A stretch of 38,187 bases of DNA from a virus: positions 1 through 38,187 of the IMG/VR virus record IMGVR_UViG_3300035670_000613; one strand, given 5' to 3'. Below are positions 1 through 6,413 of the stretch, piece after piece. Both the position numbers and the translations under genes were made by a program. The notes beneath the pieces are model-generated. The model did no database searches. It saw only the letters and a list, made by a program, of their open reading frames with translations, and was not told the origin of the DNA. How positions within the stretch are numbered: the first letter of the stretch is position 1; each line of letters starts with the position of its first letter.

Positions 1-102
1 GCAGGTCACCCGGATCTTGTCCGGGAGCGGGTGTTTCAGGTAATCGAAAAAAGCCCTGAGTTCGTCAGTAGCTTGGTTAAGCCATTCTTCGCGTGTCTTC
101 AT
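1..102 (-). CDS. SprT-like putative metallopeptidase, N-terminal part (runs off left edge)
   Basis: Reads leftward from an ATG at 102 and stays open to base 1 (34 codons seen). The start is fixed by a GGAGG site about 8 nt upstream. The visible part, opening MKTREEWLNQA and continuing with a pattern FFDYLKHPLPDKIRV, resembles the start of the SprT-like putative metallopeptidases common in phages of Gram-negative bacteria. The zinc-binding HExxH would lie outside the window, so catalysis cannot be checked. It is the last visible gene of the leftward early operon. The family call rests on the N-terminal pattern only. Confidence 0.6.
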   Translation of the reverse strand, partial: MKTREEWLNQATDELRAFFDYLKHPLPDKIRVTC

Positions 103-127
103 GGTTTGAGCCTCCATATTGTTAGCG

Positions 128-153
128 ATAGTATCACGATTTAAACAATGCAA
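128..153 (-). promoter_or_regulatory. Candidate promoter upstream of the SprT-like gene
   Basis: On the - strand, TTGCAT (153-148) is followed by an extended -10-like TGATACTAT ending at 128, giving a -10 of TACTAT at 133-128. The spacing of 14 nt from TTGCAT is short, so the extended -10 would have to do most of the work. The segment 139-155 matches 15 of 17 bases with the spacer region of the stronger leftward promoter near 3223-3251, including the TTTAAA core. This is a weak call based on that similarity. Confidence 0.25.
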
Positions 154-322
154 GCACAGCATGGTAGAGGTCTGATGCAAGCCCCCTGCCATGGCACTCG
201 CCGGGGATGTACCCGGAGGGGGTCAGGAAGACTTCCCCACAACCTCCCCACCAGTCCAGCAAGACAACAAAAAGCCCTCCGGAGAGGGCTAGATAAAAGA
301 CAGCAATGCCGATGATTCTCAT
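134..322 (-). CDS. Small predicted membrane protein, 62 aa
   Basis: Start ATG at 322 overlaps the stop of the upstream gene as ATGA, with GGAGG 8 nt upstream. Residues about 3-24 (IIGIAVFYLALSGGLFVVLL) form one strongly hydrophobic segment, so the product is probably an inner-membrane peptide or has an uncleaved signal anchor. The rest is short and Gly/Cys-containing with no motif I recognise. Function unknown; membrane location is inferred from hydrophobicity. Confidence 0.6.
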   Translation of the reverse strand: MRIIGIAVFYLALSGGLFVVLLDWWGGCGEVFLTPSGYIPGECHGRGLASDLYHAVLALFKS

Positions 323-702
323 GCGTTTTCCTCCACGTTCTCAATGATTGACTCAGCGATCTCTTTAGTTTTCTTGCGATCGATCTCTTCCCCTCTACGT
401 TTAAACAGACGATCGACAATCTTCCAGTCGTCATCAATCACGTAGACCCCGTTGTCCCAGTTGTCGGTATCAGCGTTGCCGTACTCTTCCCGGTAGACAT
501 TCATGCCCACCGGGTTTTTAAAGAAGGCACGGGCTAGAACCTCCGCTAGGGCGTCCATGCGCTCCCGGTGATCTCCTTCTATCCCCAGGGCCTTAGCAGC
601 CCGTAGGAAGCCCTCTACCGAGGCCCTACCGCCATTCCAGTGGAGATAGATGCAGGGTGCTGTGGGGTGAGTCTTGAATGTAATGACTGCGCGGTTTCCC
701 AT
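319..702 (-). CDS. Conserved phage protein of unknown function (MGNRAVI type), 127 aa
   Basis: Opens MGNRAVITFK and continues with a Trp/His-rich stretch (CIYLHWNGG) and an acidic DNWDNGVYVIDDDW patch near residues 80-93. I recognise this N-terminus from hypothetical proteins in proteobacterial phages, but no function is established that I know of. The C-terminus (about residues 100-127) is charged and probably helical. AAGGAAGG precedes the start. It is coupled to the next gene by ATGA and contains a GTTTAAAC site at 399-406 (codons for LFKR). Confidence 0.75.
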   Translation of the reverse strand: MGNRAVITFKTHPTAPCIYLHWNGGRASVEGFLRAAKALGIEGDHRERMDALAEVLARAFFKNPVGMNVYREEYGNADTDNWDNGVYVIDDDWKIVDRLFKRRGEEIDRKKTKEIAESIIENVEENA

Positions 703-858
703 TTACTTTCCTTCCTTTTGTTTTGTTTTCTCACAATCAAAAAAAGCTTCCCAATCCTGGCGGTCTACCTTGATCCAGAGGGAATCCTCAAACTCCTCCA
801 TGACCTCGGCCTGCTCAAGAATGTCAAAGGCCAGTTCGATTTTTTTAAAGTCGTCCAT
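703..858 (-). CDS. Small acidic hypothetical protein, 51 aa
   Basis: A 51-codon frame from ATG 858 to TAA at 705-703, abutting the ATG of the following gene (702). GGAGG lies 7 nt upstream of the ATG. The product opens MDDFKKIELAFDILEQAE, is rich in Asp and Glu, ends in a Lys-rich tail (KTKQKEGK), and looks like two short amphipathic helices. The fit between neighbours without a gap supports it as real. Function unknown. Confidence 0.7.
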   Translation of the reverse strand: MDDFKKIELAFDILEQAEVMEEFEDSLWIKVDRQDWEAFFDCEKTKQKEGK

Positions 859-860
859 GA

Positions 861-1136
861 TTAAACCTCCGTATTAAAGTGTTTACGAACCAATGCAATT
901 GCCTCGGTGTAAAGAACCAATGCTTCTGCTCTGCGCTTGTTCAACTCCTGTTGAATGGACTTCTGATCCAACCCTAGATCAAGTAATGACCGGGTGGAGG
1001 CATCGTTCACAAAGACCAAGGCTTCGGCGAGTTTGCCGTAGGCAAGGTACTCAAGCGTTATGTCGTTCAGGTATGCGTACCCGTCCTTGACTTCGTTGAC
1101 TGCTTTGTCAGCAAGTTTTTGTGCTTCGGTTTTCAT
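861..1136 (-). CDS. Helical hypothetical protein, 91 aa
   Basis: Start ATG 1136 with GGAGG 8 nt upstream; it ends 2 nt before the next start. The sequence is almost entirely predicted helix with heptad-like Leu spacing (for example SLLDLGLDQKSIQQELNKRRAEALVLYTEAIALV at about 49-82, which exceeds a single helix). No catalytic or metal-binding motif is visible. Its place in the leftward operon suggests an early accessory role; function unknown. Confidence 0.65.
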   Translation of the reverse strand: MKTEAQKLADKAVNEVKDGYAYLNDITLEYLAYGKLAEALVFVNDASTRSLLDLGLDQKSIQQELNKRRAEALVLYTEAIALVRKHFNTEV

Positions 1137-1138
1137 CT

Positions 1139-1483
1139 TTAAGCCTCCAGGTTAAGTTGTTTAGCCAGCGCGGGGTGCAGGTACACCGAAGGTGTAGCGG
1201 GTTTACCAAGGAACGTCCCTACGCAGACGGCGTAGGTATCGGCATCCAGTTCCAGGACAGTCTCTGCCCTTCCGCCGTTGAACTGAGGGGCACCAGTCGA
1301 AGGGATATCCACAGGTCTACCGTCCTGCACCAGGATGTAGCTAGACCGTGAACCGCCATCCCAGTAGGTACCAGAACAGGTAACCCGTTGGGTAACAGTT
1401 ACGATGGTTTTGTGTTTCCGAGAGTTAACACCAGCCTGCTTTAACAGGGTCTGGATGATGGGGTCTTTAGCACTGACGATCAT
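1139..1483 (-). CDS. Hypothetical protein, 114 aa, mainly beta
   Basis: Start ATG 1483 with GAGGAGG 7 nt upstream, overlapping the previous stop as ATGA. The sequence contains a run of short beta-type segments (KTIVTVTQRVTCSGTYW at about 25-41; SSYILVQDGRPVDIPS at about 47-62) and a C-terminal pattern VYLHPALAKQLNL. It may be a small beta-barrel or a phage accessory factor. I do not recognise a family. Confidence 0.65.
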   Translation of the reverse strand: MIVSAKDPIIQTLLKQAGVNSRKHKTIVTVTQRVTCSGTYWDGGSRSSYILVQDGRPVDIPSTGAPQFNGGRAETVLELDADTYAVCVGTFLGKPATPSVYLHPALAKQLNLEA

Positions 1484-1701
1484 TTGTATGCCTCCTCGAT
1501 GGCCTTAGTTGCAACGCGGTTGGGGTTAGGTTCCTCGCAGACGCCCTCACCGATCAGGTGAGAGGCTGTCCTACCGAACCAGCCCTGAAGCTTCCAGGCC
1601 AGTCCGGTATCTATCAGGTACTGCCAAGCTTCGATGACCTGCTCTTCGGATTCGGCTTGCACAAAGCCTTCCGCAATGCCTACTGCGTCAAATGTATTCA
1701 T
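1480..1701 (-). CDS. Small conserved phage protein, 73 aa
   Basis: Start ATG 1701 overlaps the preceding stop (ATGA), and its stop overlaps the next start. The pattern AVGIAEGFVQAESEEQVIEAW followed by YLIDTGLAWKLQGWFGR resembles a short family I have seen in proteobacterial phages (possibly DUF7417, from memory). The core is two helices with a conserved LQGWFGRTA motif near residues 38-46. No biochemical role is known to me. Translational coupling places it inside the early operon. Confidence 0.7.
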   Translation of the reverse strand: MNTFDAVGIAEGFVQAESEEQVIEAWQYLIDTGLAWKLQGWFGRTASHLIGEGVCEEPNPNRVATKAIEEAYK

Positions 1702-1928
1702 GCTGCCTCCTGGGTTTCACGTTTAATTGCATTGATAGCATCTCGCTTGCCGCCATTGCCACTAACACGATTGGTAATGGCGTAGCCGTCACCTTGCGGT
1801 TCGCATTGGGTTGCCTCAAACGAGTAGTAGTACCGAAAACCGTCCATCTTGTTGCCAAGCCGGGATCGGTAAATCGTCACCGACCAGTTTTCATGGACGA
1901 AATGCGCCTCACCGCGAAAGAAATTCAT
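1698..1928 (-). CDS. Hypothetical protein, 76 aa
   Basis: A longer frame opens to 2054, but the ATG at 1928 is preceded by AGGAGG at good spacing and overlaps the upstream stop as ATGA, so 1928 is chosen. The product opens MNFFRGEAHFVHENWSVTIY and has alternating beta-type segments (GFRYYYSFEATQ), then a basic helical tail (KRDAINAIKRETQ). No recognised domain. Function unknown. Confidence 0.65.
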   Translation of the reverse strand: MNFFRGEAHFVHENWSVTIYRSRLGNKMDGFRYYYSFEATQCEPQGDGYAITNRVSGNGGKRDAINAIKRETQEAA

Positions 1929-2209
1929 GCTGCCTCCTGATCTTCTTGCTGCTCCTTGTTGAGTTGCTCCAGCCTCTCGGCAACCAGGGCAAACACCTGG
2001 GAGACGGCCTGCGCCACTTCCACCTGGGTTGCCCCAGGTTTCCAGCCGCCGCAACCGTAGTTCATGCTGATGTCCCGCACCCTGCCCCTGTAAAGCCGCA
2101 CGTTAATAACCGCAACTTCGTCCCAGTGGGTCTGGGGGCTAACGAAACGGTGATGCATAATCCCCGATCCAGTCGGGTCAATACTGCGAACGATGTTTTC
2201 TTGAATCAT
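1925..2209 (-). CDS. Hypothetical protein, 94 aa; first gene after the type I ribozyme
   Basis: Start ATG 2209 with AGGAGG 8 nt upstream. The N-terminal half carries HHRFVSPQTHWDEVAVINVRLYRGRV with a Gly/Cys stretch (MNYGCGGWKPG at about 49-59); the C-terminal half is a helical segment (VSQVFALVAERLEQLNKEQQ). Family not recognised. The hammerhead ribozyme at 2229-2278 cleaves 25 nt upstream of this start, so the processed mRNA would begin with a very short leader carrying only the ribosome site. Confidence 0.65.
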   Translation of the reverse strand: MIQENIVRSIDPTGSGIMHHRFVSPQTHWDEVAVINVRLYRGRVRDISMNYGCGGWKPGATQVEVAQAVSQVFALVAERLEQLNKEQQEDQEAA

Positions 2210-2228
2210 GGTAGAGCCTCCTGTGGTT

Positions 2229-2278
2229 GTCTGAGACCCCCGAAGGGGTTTCGGCTATTGAAGCCTCGTCAGTCAGAC
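2229..2278 (-). ncRNA. Type I hammerhead self-cleaving ribozyme
   Basis: Read on the - strand. Stem I is GUCUGA (2278-2273) with UCAGAC (2234-2229), 6 perfect pairs. The core CUGACGA is 2272-2266. Stem II is GGCU (2265-2262) with AGCC (2256-2253), loop UCAAU. GAAA is 2252-2249, of which the last A pairs with U2236. Stem III is ACCCC (2249-2245) with GGGGU (2240-2236), closed by a UUCG tetraloop. The cleavage nucleotide C17 is 2235 in a canonical GUC, so the cut falls between 2235 and 2234. All invariant hammerhead positions (C3 U4 G5 A6, G8 A9, G12 A13 A14, A15.1-U16.1) are present. Stem I is open, hence type I. The UGA stop of the upstream gene (2275-2273) lies inside stem I. Confidence 0.93.
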
Positions 2279-2476
2279 TGCTTTGGGTTCACCCCCAGTG
2301 CATTTCAAAAGATCGGAGAGAGGAACCATGATGGACTCATAACCTCCGCAATAAATCGATGCACAAGCCGAATGCCCATGCACCGTCTCTGGATGGATGC
2401 AAACGACAAAACCAGCGATGCGCCGGAATGCACCCGGTTTTGTTCGTACCTTGTCGCCTACTTGAATCTCGTTCAT
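2273..2476 (-). CDS. Small SH3/KOW-like hypothetical protein, 67 aa
   Basis: Start ATG 2476 overlaps the stop of the 36-aa gene upstream (ATGA). It opens MNEIQVGDKVRTKPGAFRRI, a pattern typical of small SH3- or KOW-like beta barrels, and ends in SDLLKCTGGEPKAV. Its stop codon sits in the 5' strand of stem I of the type I hammerhead, so ribosomes finishing this gene must open that stem. Fold inferred from the GDxVRxKxG pattern only. Confidence 0.65.
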   Translation of the reverse strand: MNEIQVGDKVRTKPGAFRRIAGFVVCIHPETVHGHSACASIYCGGYESIMVPLSDLLKCTGGEPKAV

Positions 2477-2583
2477 ACAGCCCCCTTCCGGTGTTTTTGT
2501 TTACGGGAATACTTGGTGCGAACGGTATGCCTCCCGGCACCGCAAGAGCGGGAGTGCTTCGCTACGAAATTACGCTGCTTCAT
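2473..2583 (-). CDS. Small basic phage protein (DUF7230-like), 36 aa
   Basis: ATG 2583 is preceded by GGAGG 8 nt upstream, and its stop overlaps the next ATG. The 36-residue product is very basic: MKQRNFVAKHSRS, then HTVRTKYSRKQKHRKG. The N-terminal R-N-x-V-A-K-H and the Arg/Lys/His-rich tail match a short family that recurs in many phages and that I recall as DUF7230. Net charge suggests nucleic-acid binding, but no function is established. Confidence 0.75.
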   Translation of the reverse strand: MKQRNFVAKHSRSCGAGRHTVRTKYSRKQKHRKGAV

Positions 2584-2585
2584 GG

Positions 2586-2660
2586 TCAAACCTCCATTAA
2601 TAGAACGATGCAGATAACTGCTATGTAAAAAGCGACAGCAATCAAAAGAATGTCCATCAT
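2586..2660 (-). CDS. Tiny single-span membrane peptide, 24 aa
   Basis: ATG 2660 (or the adjacent ATG at 2657) with GGAGG 8 nt upstream; the stop TGA at 2588-2586 lies just before the next gene. Nearly the whole peptide is hydrophobic (ILLIAVAFYIAVICIVLLM), i.e. one transmembrane helix with an Asp at residue 3 and a Glu near the end. It sits directly after a second tiny membrane peptide. Role unknown; candidates are membrane remodelling, superinfection exclusion or a holin-like accessory. Confidence 0.6.
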   Translation of the reverse strand: MMDILLIAVAFYIAVICIVLLMEV

Positions 2661-2671
2661 TCTTGAGCCTC

Positions 2672-2743
2672 CTAAAGAAAGAAAAGAATCATGACCTTGG
2701 CAAAGGTCAGCCAACATACTGTTCCGAAAATGAATGCCTGCAT
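2672..2743 (-). CDS. Tiny single-span membrane peptide, 23 aa
   Basis: ATG 2743 with GGAGG 6 nt upstream; TAG at 2674-2672, and the stop codon region itself forms the AGGAGG site of the next peptide gene. The product is hydrophobic and aromatic (MQAFIFGTVCWLTFAKV, then MILFFL), consistent with one membrane helix carrying a single central Lys. Existence is supported by spacing and ribosome site rather than by homology. Confidence 0.55.
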   Translation of the reverse strand: MQAFIFGTVCWLTFAKVMILFFL

Positions 2744-2758
2744 GGTGTTCCTCCCTGT

Positions 2759-2959
2759 TTAAACGATGAAGTCAGGATGGGTATCAATCCCCAAAGAAGA
2801 GGCCAGTGCTAGCATCTCTTCCTGATCCTTCCTGCGTAGTGCTGCCCGGATTGCTGCGGATATGGATCGAGCCGCATATCCCAGAATGTCCTGGTTGCCG
2901 GGGTTGGATTCAACGAACTGTTTTGCGTATCCGCAGACTCTCTGCTGGTGCTTGGTCAT
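2759..2959 (-). CDS. Helical hypothetical protein, 66 aa; first gene of the leftward operon
   Basis: ATG 2959 with AGGAGA about 6 nt upstream. The ribosome site lies just 3' of the type III hammerhead. The product (MTKHQQRVCGYAKQFVE..., then ARSISAAIRAALRRKDQEEM) is helical with alternating charged and small residues, ending at DTHPDFIV. Its stop codon is part of a GTTTAAAC site (2757-2764). Function unknown; it is the promoter-proximal early gene, a position often used for host-takeover proteins. Confidence 0.65.
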   Translation of the reverse strand: MTKHQQRVCGYAKQFVESNPGNQDILGYAARSISAAIRAALRRKDQEEMLALASSLGIDTHPDFIV

Positions 2960-2972
2960 AAAGTCTCCTGGT

Positions 2973-3022
2973 GGGTTTCGCCCTTATGGGCTCGTCAGTA
3001 CCAGTTCTGCACTGGTAGACCC
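2973..3022 (-). ncRNA. Type III hammerhead self-cleaving ribozyme
   Basis: Read on the - strand. GGGU (3022-3019) then C17 (3018), giving the GUC site; cleavage falls between 3018 and 3017. Stem I is UACCAGU (3017-3011) with ACUGGUA, 7 perfect pairs closed by loop GCAGA. The core CUGACGA follows directly, then stem II GCCC/GGGC with loop AUAA, then GAAA (2979-2976). Stem III is GGGU with ACCC (2976-2973), 4 pairs, and is open, hence type III. All invariant core residues are present. The ribosome site of the first leftward gene (start 2959) begins a few nt downstream, so this is a self-cleaving 5' leader; the 3' product would keep a 58-nt leader. Confidence 0.94.
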
Positions 3023-3222
3023 GATTTTGTTCACTAGAGACACATGTCCCTGGTTGGCGGTATTCCCAACCGTTGGAGCCTTCCCCCAACCGAGCCTTTG
3101 TTTAAGCCCCCAAAGTCCAGAGGGCACCCCATTCAACGCTGGGGCACTGCGTCTTCGATTCTGTAGATCCCGGTAGGTAAGTGGTGATCAGGTGAATCGG
3201 TACTGCTTACTGCTTAGACCGA
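3023..3222 (-). promoter_or_regulatory. Long 5' leader of the leftward early operon, no gene
   Basis: About 190 nt between the predicted leftward start site and the type III ribozyme contain no credible ORF on either strand. Several short inverted repeats are visible, for example GGTTGG (3052-3057) with CCAACC eight bases on, CTTTG/CAAAG around a C-rich loop near 3097-3116, and CCCC/GGGG near 3127-3145. I recognise no riboswitch or tRNA. The ribozyme would cut most of this leader off the mRNA. Confidence 0.45.
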
Positions 3223-3251
3223 ATGTTAGTGCCAAAGTTTAAACGATGCAA
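3223..3251 (-). promoter_or_regulatory. Predicted sigma70-like promoter of the leftward operon
   Basis: On the - strand, TTGCAT (3251-3246) and TAACAT (3228-3223) are separated by exactly 17 nt; each matches 4 of 6 consensus bases. Transcription would start near 3216, giving a long leader that ends in the type III hammerhead. A GTTTAAAC palindrome (3237-3244) fills the spacer, a natural place for an operator. This is a pattern call without experimental support. Confidence 0.45.
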
Positions 3252-3480
3252 GCATATTGTCCCACTACCTTTGTCGGGTATTACTAAGTCATTGATAACG
3301 CTAGCAATTAATTGTTGAGTATTTTCTGGGGTTATACCTGGACAGAGGGTTACAGAGGGGTTTCCGGGGATCTTTAGGGGTGTAAACGGGGAGAAGCCGA
3401 AGGCGAGCGGATTACTACATCTAGTACAGAACAGAGGCGATGAGTACTACCGCTAGTAATGAGCTAACAGCAGACAAGGG
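3252..3480. other. Non-coding divergent control region
   Basis: No ORF with a ribosome site is present on either strand. Visible structure includes the 10-bp palindrome CAATTAATTG (3305-3314), a 10-bp-spaced direct repeat ACAGAGGG (3342 and 3352), and a G-rich run on the + strand from about 3325 to 3395. Such divergent regions may hold regulator sites or a replication origin; nothing here proves either. Confidence 0.35.
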
Positions 3481-3545
3481 TTGACGCAGTCCGTTTAAAC
3501 GGTAACCATTCGGGCATTGACGATAGGGTTGCCTACCGTTATCAC
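3481..3545 (+). promoter_or_regulatory. Predicted late promoter(s) upstream of the small terminase gene
   Basis: The best match is TTGACG (3517-3522), a 17-nt spacer, and TATCAC (3540-3545), with a start near 3552 and a leader of about 16 nt. A second TTGACG 36 nt upstream (3481-3486) is followed 17 nt later by the weaker AACCAT; its spacer contains the 12-bp palindrome CCGTTTAAACGG (3491-3502). The arrangement looks like a promoter plus an operator or a tandem promoter, by inference. Confidence 0.45.
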
Positions 3546-3567
3546 TACAAAGGAAGGAGACAGAGAA

Positions 3568-4188
3568 ATGGACAAGGTTTCATTGATAGATGAACTGGAC
3601 TCAGACACAAGCACCGAAGACCAGGACGATGCAAGCACCATCAGCGCGGGGCTAGGTATCAGCGAAGCGATGCGGAAGAAAGCCGCCCAAGTAAAACCAC
3701 ATCGAAGAAAAGATGGAAAAGAGTATGGTCATAAAGAGAGAAGACCAGGAAGACTAACAGAGAGACAGCAGCAGTTCGCAAGCCTTGTAGCTCAAGGGTT
3801 AGCACCCAAGGACGCATACAAGAAGGCATACAACCATAGAACAGACAATGAGGCATCAGCAGTCGCATCTGCCCACAAGCTAATGCGGAATGAGAAGGTG
3901 GCTGCACTTATCGGCTCTGTCTTTGACACCATAAAAGAAAACATCATTGCCGATGCAGTGGCAACAAGGCGTCACGTCATGGAGCAACTGATCAAGCATG
4001 CAGAGGGCGCCAAGCATGAGAGTACCAAGCTCAAGGCCTTGGAACTGATGGGTAAGGCAGTCGGTATGTTCACTGACAGAGTGGAGCAAAAGGTCGAAGA
4101 GGTAAGCACAGAGCGGCTTAAGAAGGAACTGCAGTCAAGCCTCGCTCTGTTAGACAACGTCAGACCTATTGGCAAACGCACTGCCTGA
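3568..4188 (+). CDS. terS: Terminase small subunit
   Basis: Chosen start ATG 3568, 206 aa, with AAGGAGA upstream at good spacing; an upstream TTG at 3517 in frame overlaps the predicted promoter and is rejected. An acidic disordered N-terminus (about 1-30) and a basic linker precede a helix-turn-helix segment from LTERQQQFASLVAQG (63-77) through KDAYKKAY to AHKLMRNEKVAALI (102-115), the pattern of Terminase_2-type small subunits that recognise phage DNA for packaging. The C-terminal half is helical and would oligomerise. It lies upstream of terL, separated by a regulatory gap and a winged-helix gene. Confidence 0.88.
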   Translation: MDKVSLIDELDSDTSTEDQDDASTISAGLGISEAMRKKAAQVKPHRRKDGKEYGHKERRPGRLTERQQQFASLVAQGLAPKDAYKKAYNHRTDNEASAVASAHKLMRNEKVAALIGSVFDTIKENIIADAVATRRHVMEQLIKHAEGAKHESTKLKALELMGKAVGMFTDRVEQKVEEVSTERLKKELQSSLALLDNVRPIGKRTA

Positions 4189-4228
4189 GTTAGGCACTGC
4201 ATGGCCTGGAACCCGCATCCAGCCTGAG

Positions 4229-4257
4229 GCCCCCGGTACCACCCCCCACCGGGGGGC
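4229..4257 (+). terminator. GC-rich hairpin after terS, possible terminator
   Basis: GCCCCCGGT (4229-4237) pairs with ACCGGGGGGC (4248-4257) with one bulged G, loop about 10 nt. It is very stable and sits 40 nt past the terS stop, but no T-run follows, so factor-independent termination is doubtful. It could instead be an mRNA-stabilising hairpin or part of a packaging site. Confidence 0.4.
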
Positions 4258-4464
4258 ACCCCCCTAAACGCCACGCCTGCCCCCTCCTGCCCTATAGCTG
4301 TAATCCCCACATCCGATTTCCATCCCTACTTACCACTGTCTATCCATACACCTGTCTATCTTTACATATGTATGTTTATACAGAAGGGTATCAATTCGTA
4401 CTGAGTTTTCCGACAGCCAGAAAGAACAGGGAATTTTGCGTCCGCACCGTCCGCTTCGTCCTTT

Positions 4465-4480
4465 TGTCGTTTAAACGACA
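4465..4480. promoter_or_regulatory. 16-bp perfect palindrome centred on GTTTAAAC
   Basis: TGTCGTTTAAACGACA is identical to its reverse complement. It lies in the non-coding gap about 190 bp upstream of the winged-helix gene and is the longest extension of the repeated GTTTAAAC motif in the window. The symmetry fits a dimeric DNA-binding protein site; the neighbouring winged-helix protein is an obvious but untested candidate. Confidence 0.45.
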
Positions 4481-4590
4481 GAAGTAGGGTTCCATCGTCT
4501 CCGCCAAAGATAACGCCAGAACTAGCTCTTAAGGCGGCTTGTTCGTTTACATACCATCCAGCATATCGTTAGATCTTTTGTACCCCCCTA

Positions 4591-4621
4591 CCCCCTTCGC
4601 AAAAAGAAGGGGGGGTTGTTT
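4591..4621 (+). terminator. Probable factor-independent terminator before the winged-helix gene
   Basis: CCCCCTTC (4591-4598) pairs with GAAGGGGG (4606-4613), 8 bp with loop GCAAAAA, followed by GGTTGTTT. The T-rich tail is interrupted, so strength is uncertain. It would end transcription coming from terS and separate it from the terL unit, which then has its own candidate promoter. Confidence 0.5.
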
Positions 4622-4643
4622 AAACATACAGTAGTTGTAGAAT
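4616..4643 (+). promoter_or_regulatory. Candidate promoter for the winged-helix/terL unit
   Basis: TTGTTT (4616-4621), 16-nt spacer, TAGAAT (4638-4643; 5 of 6 consensus bases). The -35 half is weak and overlaps a GTTTAAAC site (4618-4625). The position directly after the terminator hairpin and about 30 nt before the ATG at 4672 is suitable. Confidence 0.35.
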
Positions 4644-4671
4644 GCGAGCGATATTCGCTTGGAGTCCCACG

Positions 4672-4911
4672 ATGCTATTCAAAATATCTAAGCCTCAACA
4701 GGAAGTTTATGAGTTTATTAGAGCCTTCATGAAGATCCATGGCTTCCCTCCGACTTACGACGAAATGGAGGAAGCATTGAAGAAAAGCAGAACGACTATC
4801 AATGGACACGTGAAGAGACTGAGAGCCAAAGGATTGTTATCAATCAAGGCTGATGCTGCTAGGGGTATTAGGTTGATTGATAGGTCTGCTAAGGCTGTGG
4901 ATCGACTTTGA
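4672..4911 (+). CDS. LexA-like winged-helix DNA-binding protein, 79 aa
   Basis: ATG 4672 is chosen over an in-frame ATG at 4642 because GGAG lies 7 nt upstream and 4642 overlaps the predicted -10. The pattern KPQQEVYEFIRAFMKIHGFPPTYDE (7-31), then LKKSRTTINGHVKRLRAKGLL (36-56) follows the LexA N-terminal DNA-binding domain closely, including the GFPPTYDEM turn and a recognition helix around TTINGHVKRL. There is no C-terminal self-cleavage domain. The stop overlaps the terL start. The likely role is a phage transcription regulator; a DNA-binding role in packaging is an alternative given its position between terS and terL. Confidence 0.75.
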   Translation: MLFKISKPQQEVYEFIRAFMKIHGFPPTYDEMEEALKKSRTTINGHVKRLRAKGLLSIKADAARGIRLIDRSAKAVDRL

Positions 4912-6413
4912 GCGAACTGTTAACCAGAGAAGAACTGGAAAAATATTCAGTTCTTTTAGAGAACATTCCTGCTAACTCACCACAGGCGGAGAAGGTTTGG
5001 AAGTTACTGAAGGCCCATAAGAGGGCCTTGTGTAGGGAAGGGTTTCTACCGTTTGTGCAGGAGGTCTGGCCTGCCTTTATCGGTGGTAAACACCACAAGA
5101 TCATGGCAGATGCCTTTGAGAGGGTTGCCAGAGGGGAGCTAAAGAGGTTAATCATCAATATGCCTCCCCGCCACACGAAGAGTGAGTTTGCTTCCTATCT
5201 CTTTCCGGCATGGTTTCTGGGGTTATACCCAGAGAAGAAGATCATTCAGACTGCCCACACGGCAGAGCTAGCGGTAGGGTTTGGTAGGAAGGTTAGGAAC
5301 CTGGTTGGTTCTTCTGATTATTCGCCCATCTTTCCGACCCGGCTTTCAGCCGATTCAAAAGCCGCCGGGAGGTGGAACACAAACAAGGGCGGGGATTACT
5401 TTGCTATCGGGGTAGGTGGTGCTGTTACCGGTAAGGGTGCGGATCTTTTGATTATTGACGACCCGCACTCAGAACAAGAAGCTATGCTCGGTAACCCTAC
5501 GGTCTATGACAGGGTCTATGAATGGTATTCCTCAGGTCCCAGACAACGACTGCAGCCTGGAGGATCAATAGTCATCGTTATGACCAGATGGTCAAAGAGA
5601 GACTTAACAGGACAGGTGATTAGCAATTCCGTTGCCAGGGACGGAGATCAGTGGGAAGTAATTGAATTGCCAGCAATACTTCCCTCAGGAAGACCCCTTT
5701 GGCCTGAGTTCTGGAAGCAGTCTGAACTGGAAGCCATTAAGGCTGAGATCCCGGTAGGGAAGTGGGAGGCACAGTATCAGCAGAACCCCACCTCAGAAGA
5801 GGGAGCGATCGTTAAGAGGGATATGTGGAGGATCTGGGAGAAAGATGACCCACCTTCTTGTGACTACATCATCCAGTCCTGGGACACCGCTTTTGAAAAG
5901 CACAACAGGGCAGACTTCTCCGCCTGCACCACCTGGGGGATCTTCTACAAAGAGAATGAGGAAGGGCTTGAGATCGCCAACATCATCCTTTTGGACGCCT
6001 TTAAGGAAAGAATGGAGTTCCCTGACCTTAAGAGAACCGCCATGGAGATGTACAAGGAATGGAACCCAGACACCCTCCTTGTCGAGAAAAAAGCCGCTGG
6101 GGCTCCCTTGATCTATGAAATGCGGAAGATGGGGATTCCTATGTCTGAATATACACCCTCAAAAGGTTCAGATAAGATAGCCCGTGTAAACGCTATATCA
6201 GACCTTTTTGCCTCCGGTCTGGTCTGGTGCCCCAATAAACGATGGGCGGAGGAAGTTATTGAAGAAGTTGCGAGCTTTCCCAACGGAGACCATGACGACC
6301 TTGTGGACTCAACCAGTCAAGCCCTACTGCGGTTTCGACAGGGAGGCTTTATCCGAATCCCGTCAGACGAACCAGAAAATTATGTTCGTCGTAAACGACC
6401 GAGGTACTACTAA
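4908..6413 (+). CDS. terL: Terminase large subunit
   Basis: 501 aa; a TTG start at 4908 overlaps the previous stop. The ATPase domain has a Walker A-like PPRHTKSE (86-93), Walker B LLIIDD (180-185) and a coupling-type MTRWSKRDL motif (225-233). The RNase H-like nuclease domain shows SWDTA (D326), LVEKK (E393) and NGDHDDLVDS (D461-D467), the expected acidic metal-binding residues. It is the motor and nuclease that fills the procapsid with DNA, working with TerS and the portal. The length is normal for the family. The next gene overlaps as TAATG. Confidence 0.96.
   Translation: MSELLTREELEKYSVLLENIPANSPQAEKVWKLLKAHKRALCREGFLPFVQEVWPAFIGGKHHKIMADAFERVARGELKRLIINMPPRHTKSEFASYLFPAWFLGLYPEKKIIQTAHTAELAVGFGRKVRNLVGSSDYSPIFPTRLSADSKAAGRWNTNKGGDYFAIGVGGAVTGKGADLLIIDDPHSEQEAMLGNPTVYDRVYEWYSSGPRQRLQPGGSIVIVMTRWSKRDLTGQVISNSVARDGDQWEVIELPAILPSGRPLWPEFWKQSELEAIKAEIPVGKWEAQYQQNPTSEEGAIVKRDMWRIWEKDDPPSCDYIIQSWDTAFEKHNRADFSACTTWGIFYKENEEGLEIANIILLDAFKERMEFPDLKRTAMEMYKEWNPDTLLVEKKAAGAPLIYEMRKMGIPMSEYTPSKGSDKIARVNAISDLFASGLVWCPNKRWAEEVIEEVASFPNGDHDDLVDSTSQALLRFRQGGFIRIPSDEPENYVRRKRPRYY

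Follow-up and report, generated by a model that had tools for sequence, protein, structure and literature searches.

An uncultured phage carries a type I hammerhead ribozyme between the stop codon of one gene and the Shine-Dalgarno sequence of the next: a probable role in separating cistrons

What does a self-cleaving RNA do between two small genes of a phage? Prophage hammerheads that flank genes have been proposed to divide long transcripts into mRNAs that span an operon or a single gene (Perreault et al. 2011, PMC3088659). In vitro cleavage was seen for tandem prophage hammerheads, the A. tumefaciens set being active in E. coli as well, and a halovirus hammerhead agrees with a mapped transcript 5' end (PMC3088659). 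A 2017 review still gave the role of phage hammerheads as open (PMC6155905).

The question arises here from an uncultured phage, IMG/VR virus record IMGVR_UViG_3300035670_000613, of which the whole stretch was analyzed (positions 1 to 38,187; here, the window). Another record, IMGVR_UViG_3300036770_001578, is 100% identical to the window over the part compared. The terminase large subunit encoded in the window (phrog_38, E 5e-108) has its closest annotated relatives, at 51-59% identity, in phage 023Pt_psg01, Pelagibacter phages HTVC027P and HTVC023P, and phage DSL-LC04, and a series of small open reading frames (ORFs) lies on the minus strand ahead of the terminase genes. At the DNA level, a search of window positions 1-5000 against phage records gave 0 matches. 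The palindrome GTTTAAAC occurs at 14 sites in the window versus 0.69 expected (for example, at 399, 2757, 3237, 3493, 4469, and 4618) and is present too near the small-gene region of a relative, L008; it is possibly a regulator or modification site. Past the low end of the window, in the same transcription direction, L001 (7100-10282) contains what by eye look like a SprT-type metalloprotease, an AAA+ ATPase, and a VWA-domain protein.

The ribozyme lies on the minus strand at 2278-2229, between ORFs of 67 and 94 amino acids (aa), and lines up as GUCUGA-CUGACGA-GGCUUCAAUAGCC-GAA-ACCCCUUCGGGGGU-C/UCAGAC, the slash marking the predicted cut between 2235 and 2234. Stem I is formed by the 5' strand GUCUGA (2278-2273) and the 3' strand UCAGAC (2234-2229); the core segments CUGACGA (2272-2266) and GAA (2252-2250) enclose the 4-bp stem II (GGCU-UCAAU-AGCC, 2265-2253), and stem III (A-CCCC-UUCG-GGGG-U, an A-U pair plus 4 bp with a UUCG loop, 2249-2236) leads to C17 at 2235. 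All core positions are present in the type I order (C3 U4 G5 A6 N7 G8 A9 / G12 A13 A14, A15.1-U16.1, H17), stem I is open, and loops close stems II and III. The complete type I hammerhead proposed for this site in the initial annotation is thus borne out by direct reading and backed by comparative data, namely a covariance model and compensatory changes in terminase-linked relatives. Its positions for the GUC, the cut, and the TGA all check, as does the distance of 25 nucleotides (nt) from the start of the downstream product to the next ATG (2209). An intrinsic terminator was rejected as a reading of the element: stem III is followed by UCUCAGAC, with no U-run, and a terminator scan lists none there.

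The upstream ORF (2273-2476, minus strand) has no family match in Pfam or PHROG, and its TGA stop (2275-2273) is, as had been claimed, built into the 5' strand of stem I, of which it makes up the 3' half. Downstream, ORF A (1925-2209, minus strand; 94 aa) shows a weak match to phrog_31816 (E 0.008). Its Shine-Dalgarno (SD) sequence, AGGAGG (2217-2222, minus strand), was assigned from sequence and predicted accessibility and lies between the ribozyme and the ATG. ORF B (1698-1928, minus strand) follows with an ATGA overlap with the ORF A stop. The description of the genes flanking the ribozyme as coupled is unsupported, with 63 nt between the ORFs, and their description as early is unsupported as stated. 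A basic ORF of 35 aa (MKQRNFVAKHSRSCGAGRHTVRTKYSRKQKHRKGA; window 2477-2583, minus strand) is found at 67-73% in seven terminase relatives and is kept more widely than most neighbors.

Several controls bear on whether such a motif could arise by chance. CTGANGA cores with stem II and GAAA occur only twice in the window, both strands counted, and both are full ribozymes. The type I descriptor gave 3 matches in 1.9 Mb of first-order Markov sequence versus 184 in real loci, and around cores planted at random sites stems I and III arise in 3%, versus 11 of 11 real cores from terminase relatives and 189 of 196 from the pattern set. Of the matches to the same pattern, 114 of 133 from viral contigs have full type I stems versus just 18 of 119 from cellular genomes, where most matches were therefore rejected as chance.

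Recognition by the Rfam type I covariance model, suggested as a check in the initial annotation, did not materialize: RF00163 (Hammerhead_1; gathering threshold, 34 bits) gives no match to the window ribozyme even at E up to 5. The two have the catalytic core and the open stem I topology in common but differ in that stem I of the window ribozyme is an uninterrupted 6-bp helix. Because Rfam at its cut-offs likewise misses about 25 further hammerheads spread over nine other phage loci, the lack of a match says more about the model than about the RNA and marks a gap in the Rfam model. A covariance model built from phage ribozymes, R1, scores the window ribozyme at 69.8 bits with the window row in its training set, and scores the ribozymes of L004, L005, L008, and L026, absent from training, at 54.6 to 71.1 bits; R1 picks up phage ribozymes that Rfam misses. 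A corresponding type III model, R2, was not used, as its automatic consensus structure gave stem II alone.

Type I hammerheads recur on the strand opposite to the terminase in terminase-related contigs (L004, L005, L008, L026, L043, L054, and, with two each, L061 and L063). When the window ribozyme is aligned with nine of these hammerheads (8 distinct rows), 10 of 15 pairs have double-sided changes and 100% of cells are paired. Among 63 phage sequences a compensatory change is seen in 13 of 15 pairs, partly by selection; alignment A1 was chosen for 6-bp stems, so that its pairing percentage is in part a product of that choice. The identities of the neighboring genes differ among relatives. Downstream of the L008 ribozyme lie homologues of gene A (39%) and gene B (55%), while the gene upstream is a different one. 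L032 has a gene A homologue (40%) without a ribozyme, and the junction reads AACTAAGGAGG...ATG, with the stop directly against the SD sequence, showing that the ribozyme occupies a junction able to exist without it. No such hammerhead was found in the nearest annotated isolates, L203 to L207 (parts of genomes), and hence the ribozyme is dispensable in the group.

The same layout of stop codon, ribozyme, SD sequence, and start codon is present, among the matches listed, in about 150 other phage sequences. The class sample comprises at least 167 distinct phage type I hammerheads and is a pattern sample rather than a census; its statistics carry no correction for relatedness, and the ORF calls behind the layout counts are mechanical, so that single cases may be wrong. 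Among the matches listed, 147 of 167 have a stem I of exactly 6 bp, the stop of the upstream ORF falls between -8 and +20 of stem I in 133 of the 155 cases with a clear upstream ORF (86%, versus 6.6% at random sites), and the distance from cut to start has a median of 25 nt and lies at 20-30 nt in 91 of 152 cases (versus 6.7% at random sites). Within these same listed matches the stop overlaps the ribozyme in 93 of 155 cases, the commonest single case (34) being the UGA within the catalytic core; stops a short way ahead of stem I (at -3, -5, and -7) are common as well, and a stop almost never lies beyond +21.

In this class, the surroundings of stem I covary with loop II. The window has A2279 directly 5' of stem I, AA (2228-2227) directly 3' of it, and a UCAAU loop, all on the minus strand; across the class sample the 5' position is A in 88% of 167 and the two 3' positions are A in 84% and 74%. 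Among the matches listed, a 13-nt stem II hairpin with a UNAAU loop goes with A on both the 5' and the 3' side of stem I in 121 of 126 ribozymes with a 6-bp stem I, and the 12-nt form of stem II usually goes with T or C on the 5' side and T on the 3' side (8 of 10). Because the flanks and the loop II class covary (Fisher p 1.7e-10, uncorrected for relatedness), loop II likely contacts the bases flanking stem I, A2279 and the AA being the putative partners. Stem I of the window does not have the internal loop found in classical type I ribozymes, and the covariation suggests that the base of the open stem takes the place of this loop. Secondary-structure prediction in a context of 100 nt on either side, computed without tertiary contact or cotranscriptional folding, often disfavors stem I across the class, with a median pair probability of 0.10 and about 0.7 for the window.

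The window ribozyme had been described as a second hammerhead besides another one, and the other is real: a type III hammerhead at 3022-2973 (minus strand; cut between 3018 and 3017) opens the same run of genes and is followed by a 66-aa ORF (2759-2959, minus strand). It has the core and topology of RF00008 (Hammerhead_3), yet it resides in a phage operon rather than a satellite RNA or viroid and scores 34.8 bits (E 8e-5) versus a gathering cut-off of 48.5 bits. With small ORFs between them, the two ribozymes form a same-strand array. A genuine type III hammerhead is the 5'-most unit of same-strand type I arrays in the window, L083, L197, L108, L126, L156, and L115, with L089 as an exception; the type III-first order is a trend, several of these arrays being mutually related. 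Some RF00008 matches in arrays were rejected as extra ribozymes, as they overlap with type I units and simply read the same sequence in another way. Dense arrays with six and five type I hammerheads per contig occur in L108 (G008), where they lie between successive small ORFs, and in L147 (G019), respectively. A stable hairpin (z below -1.5) directly precedes 9 of 18 phage type III hammerheads (for example, L137:46-101, L139:195-249, L151:1269-1324, and L160:4087-4141); with it, the upstream product would end in a hairpin at its 3' side, as it does with type I alone.

Known systems share parts of this arrangement. In the prophage tandems of Perreault et al. (PMC3088659), as in the window, different hammerhead types flank single genes or short gene blocks; stop codons have 0 occurrences in the main text of that paper and no fixed start distance is given, whereas here the placement was measured on about 150 phage ribozymes. 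The hammerhead of Pseudomonas phage PaP3, a variant listed there (PMC3088659), is likewise of type I, with a TAA abutting stem I and an SD sequence and GTG start 28 nt after the cut; it differs from the window ribozyme in that its stem II hairpin is longer (20 nt) and its stem III larger, and R1, outside whose training set it falls, scores it at 34 bits (E 6e-6), versus 70 for the window. This GTG (L335, 43976-44012) is in frame with the annotated orf66, 36 nt upstream of the annotated start, and is probably the true orf66 start. HHphage of haloviruses HF1/HF2 also lies shortly (13 nt) before a start codon on a polycistronic phage transcript, and a 5' end has been mapped close to its cut, but it has a variant core, belongs to an archaeal virus, and precedes the first ORF rather than separating two (PMC3088659). 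In Bcep176, for which an A6C-core variant is reported (PMC3088659), a relaxed scan found no hammerhead. The window ribozyme thus belongs to the known phage hammerheads flanking genes, and the stop-ribozyme-SD architecture on the class scale is new here and worth reporting; we found no earlier account of it in the open literature (subscription papers and preprints being outside the search).

We consider it probable that the element is a cis-acting type I hammerhead that splits a polycistronic phage mRNA between two cistrons. In silico support comes from the full core and stems, from conservation with compensatory changes, and from the position exactly between the upstream stop and the downstream SD sequence. 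Because a type I hammerhead cuts at its own 3' edge, both ORFs stay intact, with the stop on the 5' product and the SD sequence and start on the 3' product; such a cut is the most economical separation of cistrons, which accounts for the position of the ribozyme. After transcription and with no ribosome on the UGA, the RNA would fold, loop II (UCAAU) docking on the A and AA flanks of stem I, and would be cut between 2235 and 2234. The upstream mRNA would retain its whole ORF, its stop, and a 3' end of two hairpins with a 2',3'-cyclic phosphate, as the initial annotation had predicted and as follows from type I geometry. The downstream mRNA would begin with a 5'-OH and a 25-nt leader carrying AGGAGG. 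Were the type III ribozyme to cut too, the transcript would yield a trimmed-off leader, a 783-nt piece with the initial small genes, and a 3' piece that opens with genes A and B, and the stability and translation of the pieces could then differ. RNase E is not stimulated by 5'-OH ends as it is by 5'-monophosphates, and a hairpin 3' end slows exonucleases. Both halves may therefore gain independent lifetimes, depending on the nucleases of the host.

Other roles can be weighed against separation of cistrons. While on the stop codon, a ribosome would sit over stem I and some of the core, so that cutting probably follows its release. The competition between termination and folding envisaged in the initial annotation is sterically plausible, and stop overlap recurs across the class. 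Carried further, the ribosome at the stem I UGA would hold the ribozyme open, and cleavage, occurring only without upstream translation, would act as a translation sensor. The frequent overlap of stop and ribozyme, with the core UGA as its commonest form, speaks for this, as does the near absence of stops past +21, meaning that translating ribosomes do not cross the second half of the core or the cut site; however, stops that merely precede stem I are common also, so the overlap may be mere compact packing, and the CUGANGA core gives a UGA in one frame anyway. We regard such a sensor as unlikely. The cut might instead matter mainly by freeing the gene A SD sequence and AUG from pairing with upstream coding RNA. 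For the window locus, the ribosome-site exposure claimed initially is indeed predicted, the unpaired probability rising on cutting from 0.19 to 0.60 for the SD sequence and from 0.02 to 0.43 for the AUG, but it does not extend to the class, where the predicted mean goes from 0.58 uncleaved to 0.62 cleaved (24% gain and 8% lose) and gives no support to exposure as a purpose of the class as a whole. The same pairing would, moreover, be opened by ribosomes translating the upstream ORF, and we hold this account to be quite unlikely.

Release of a 783-nt RNA by cutting at the type III site (5') and the type I site (3'), followed by ligation of its 5'-OH and 2',3'-cyclic phosphate into a circular mRNA, is very improbable. 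The ends are chemically suitable, and the GGGU-C at the 3' terminus of the type I product could pair with the ACCC that the type III core leaves at the 5' end, but this end match is missing from the other III-then-I arrays inspected (L083, L115, and L156), and hammerhead religation to a circular mRNA was rejected. Perreault et al., moreover, sought spliced or circular products and found none (PMC3088659). A chance match or dead relic, for which the failure of Rfam to score the window ribozyme as type I might be cited, is scarcely credible in view of the Markov and planted-core controls, the class layout, the compensatory changes, and the R1 scores of left-out relatives.

We tentatively raise a rather doubtful possibility: that stop codon, hammerhead, SD sequence, and start form a standard punctuation module of phages, in which the 5' strand or core of the ribozyme is shared with the upstream stop, termination gates cleavage, arrays usually open with a type III unit, and the later genes are parted by type I units. 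That the ribozyme, in many phages, exactly fills the interval from a stop codon to the following ribosome-binding site is strong indirect evidence for a separation of cistrons that spares both ORFs, and the question of phage hammerhead function, open since 2011, becomes directly testable.
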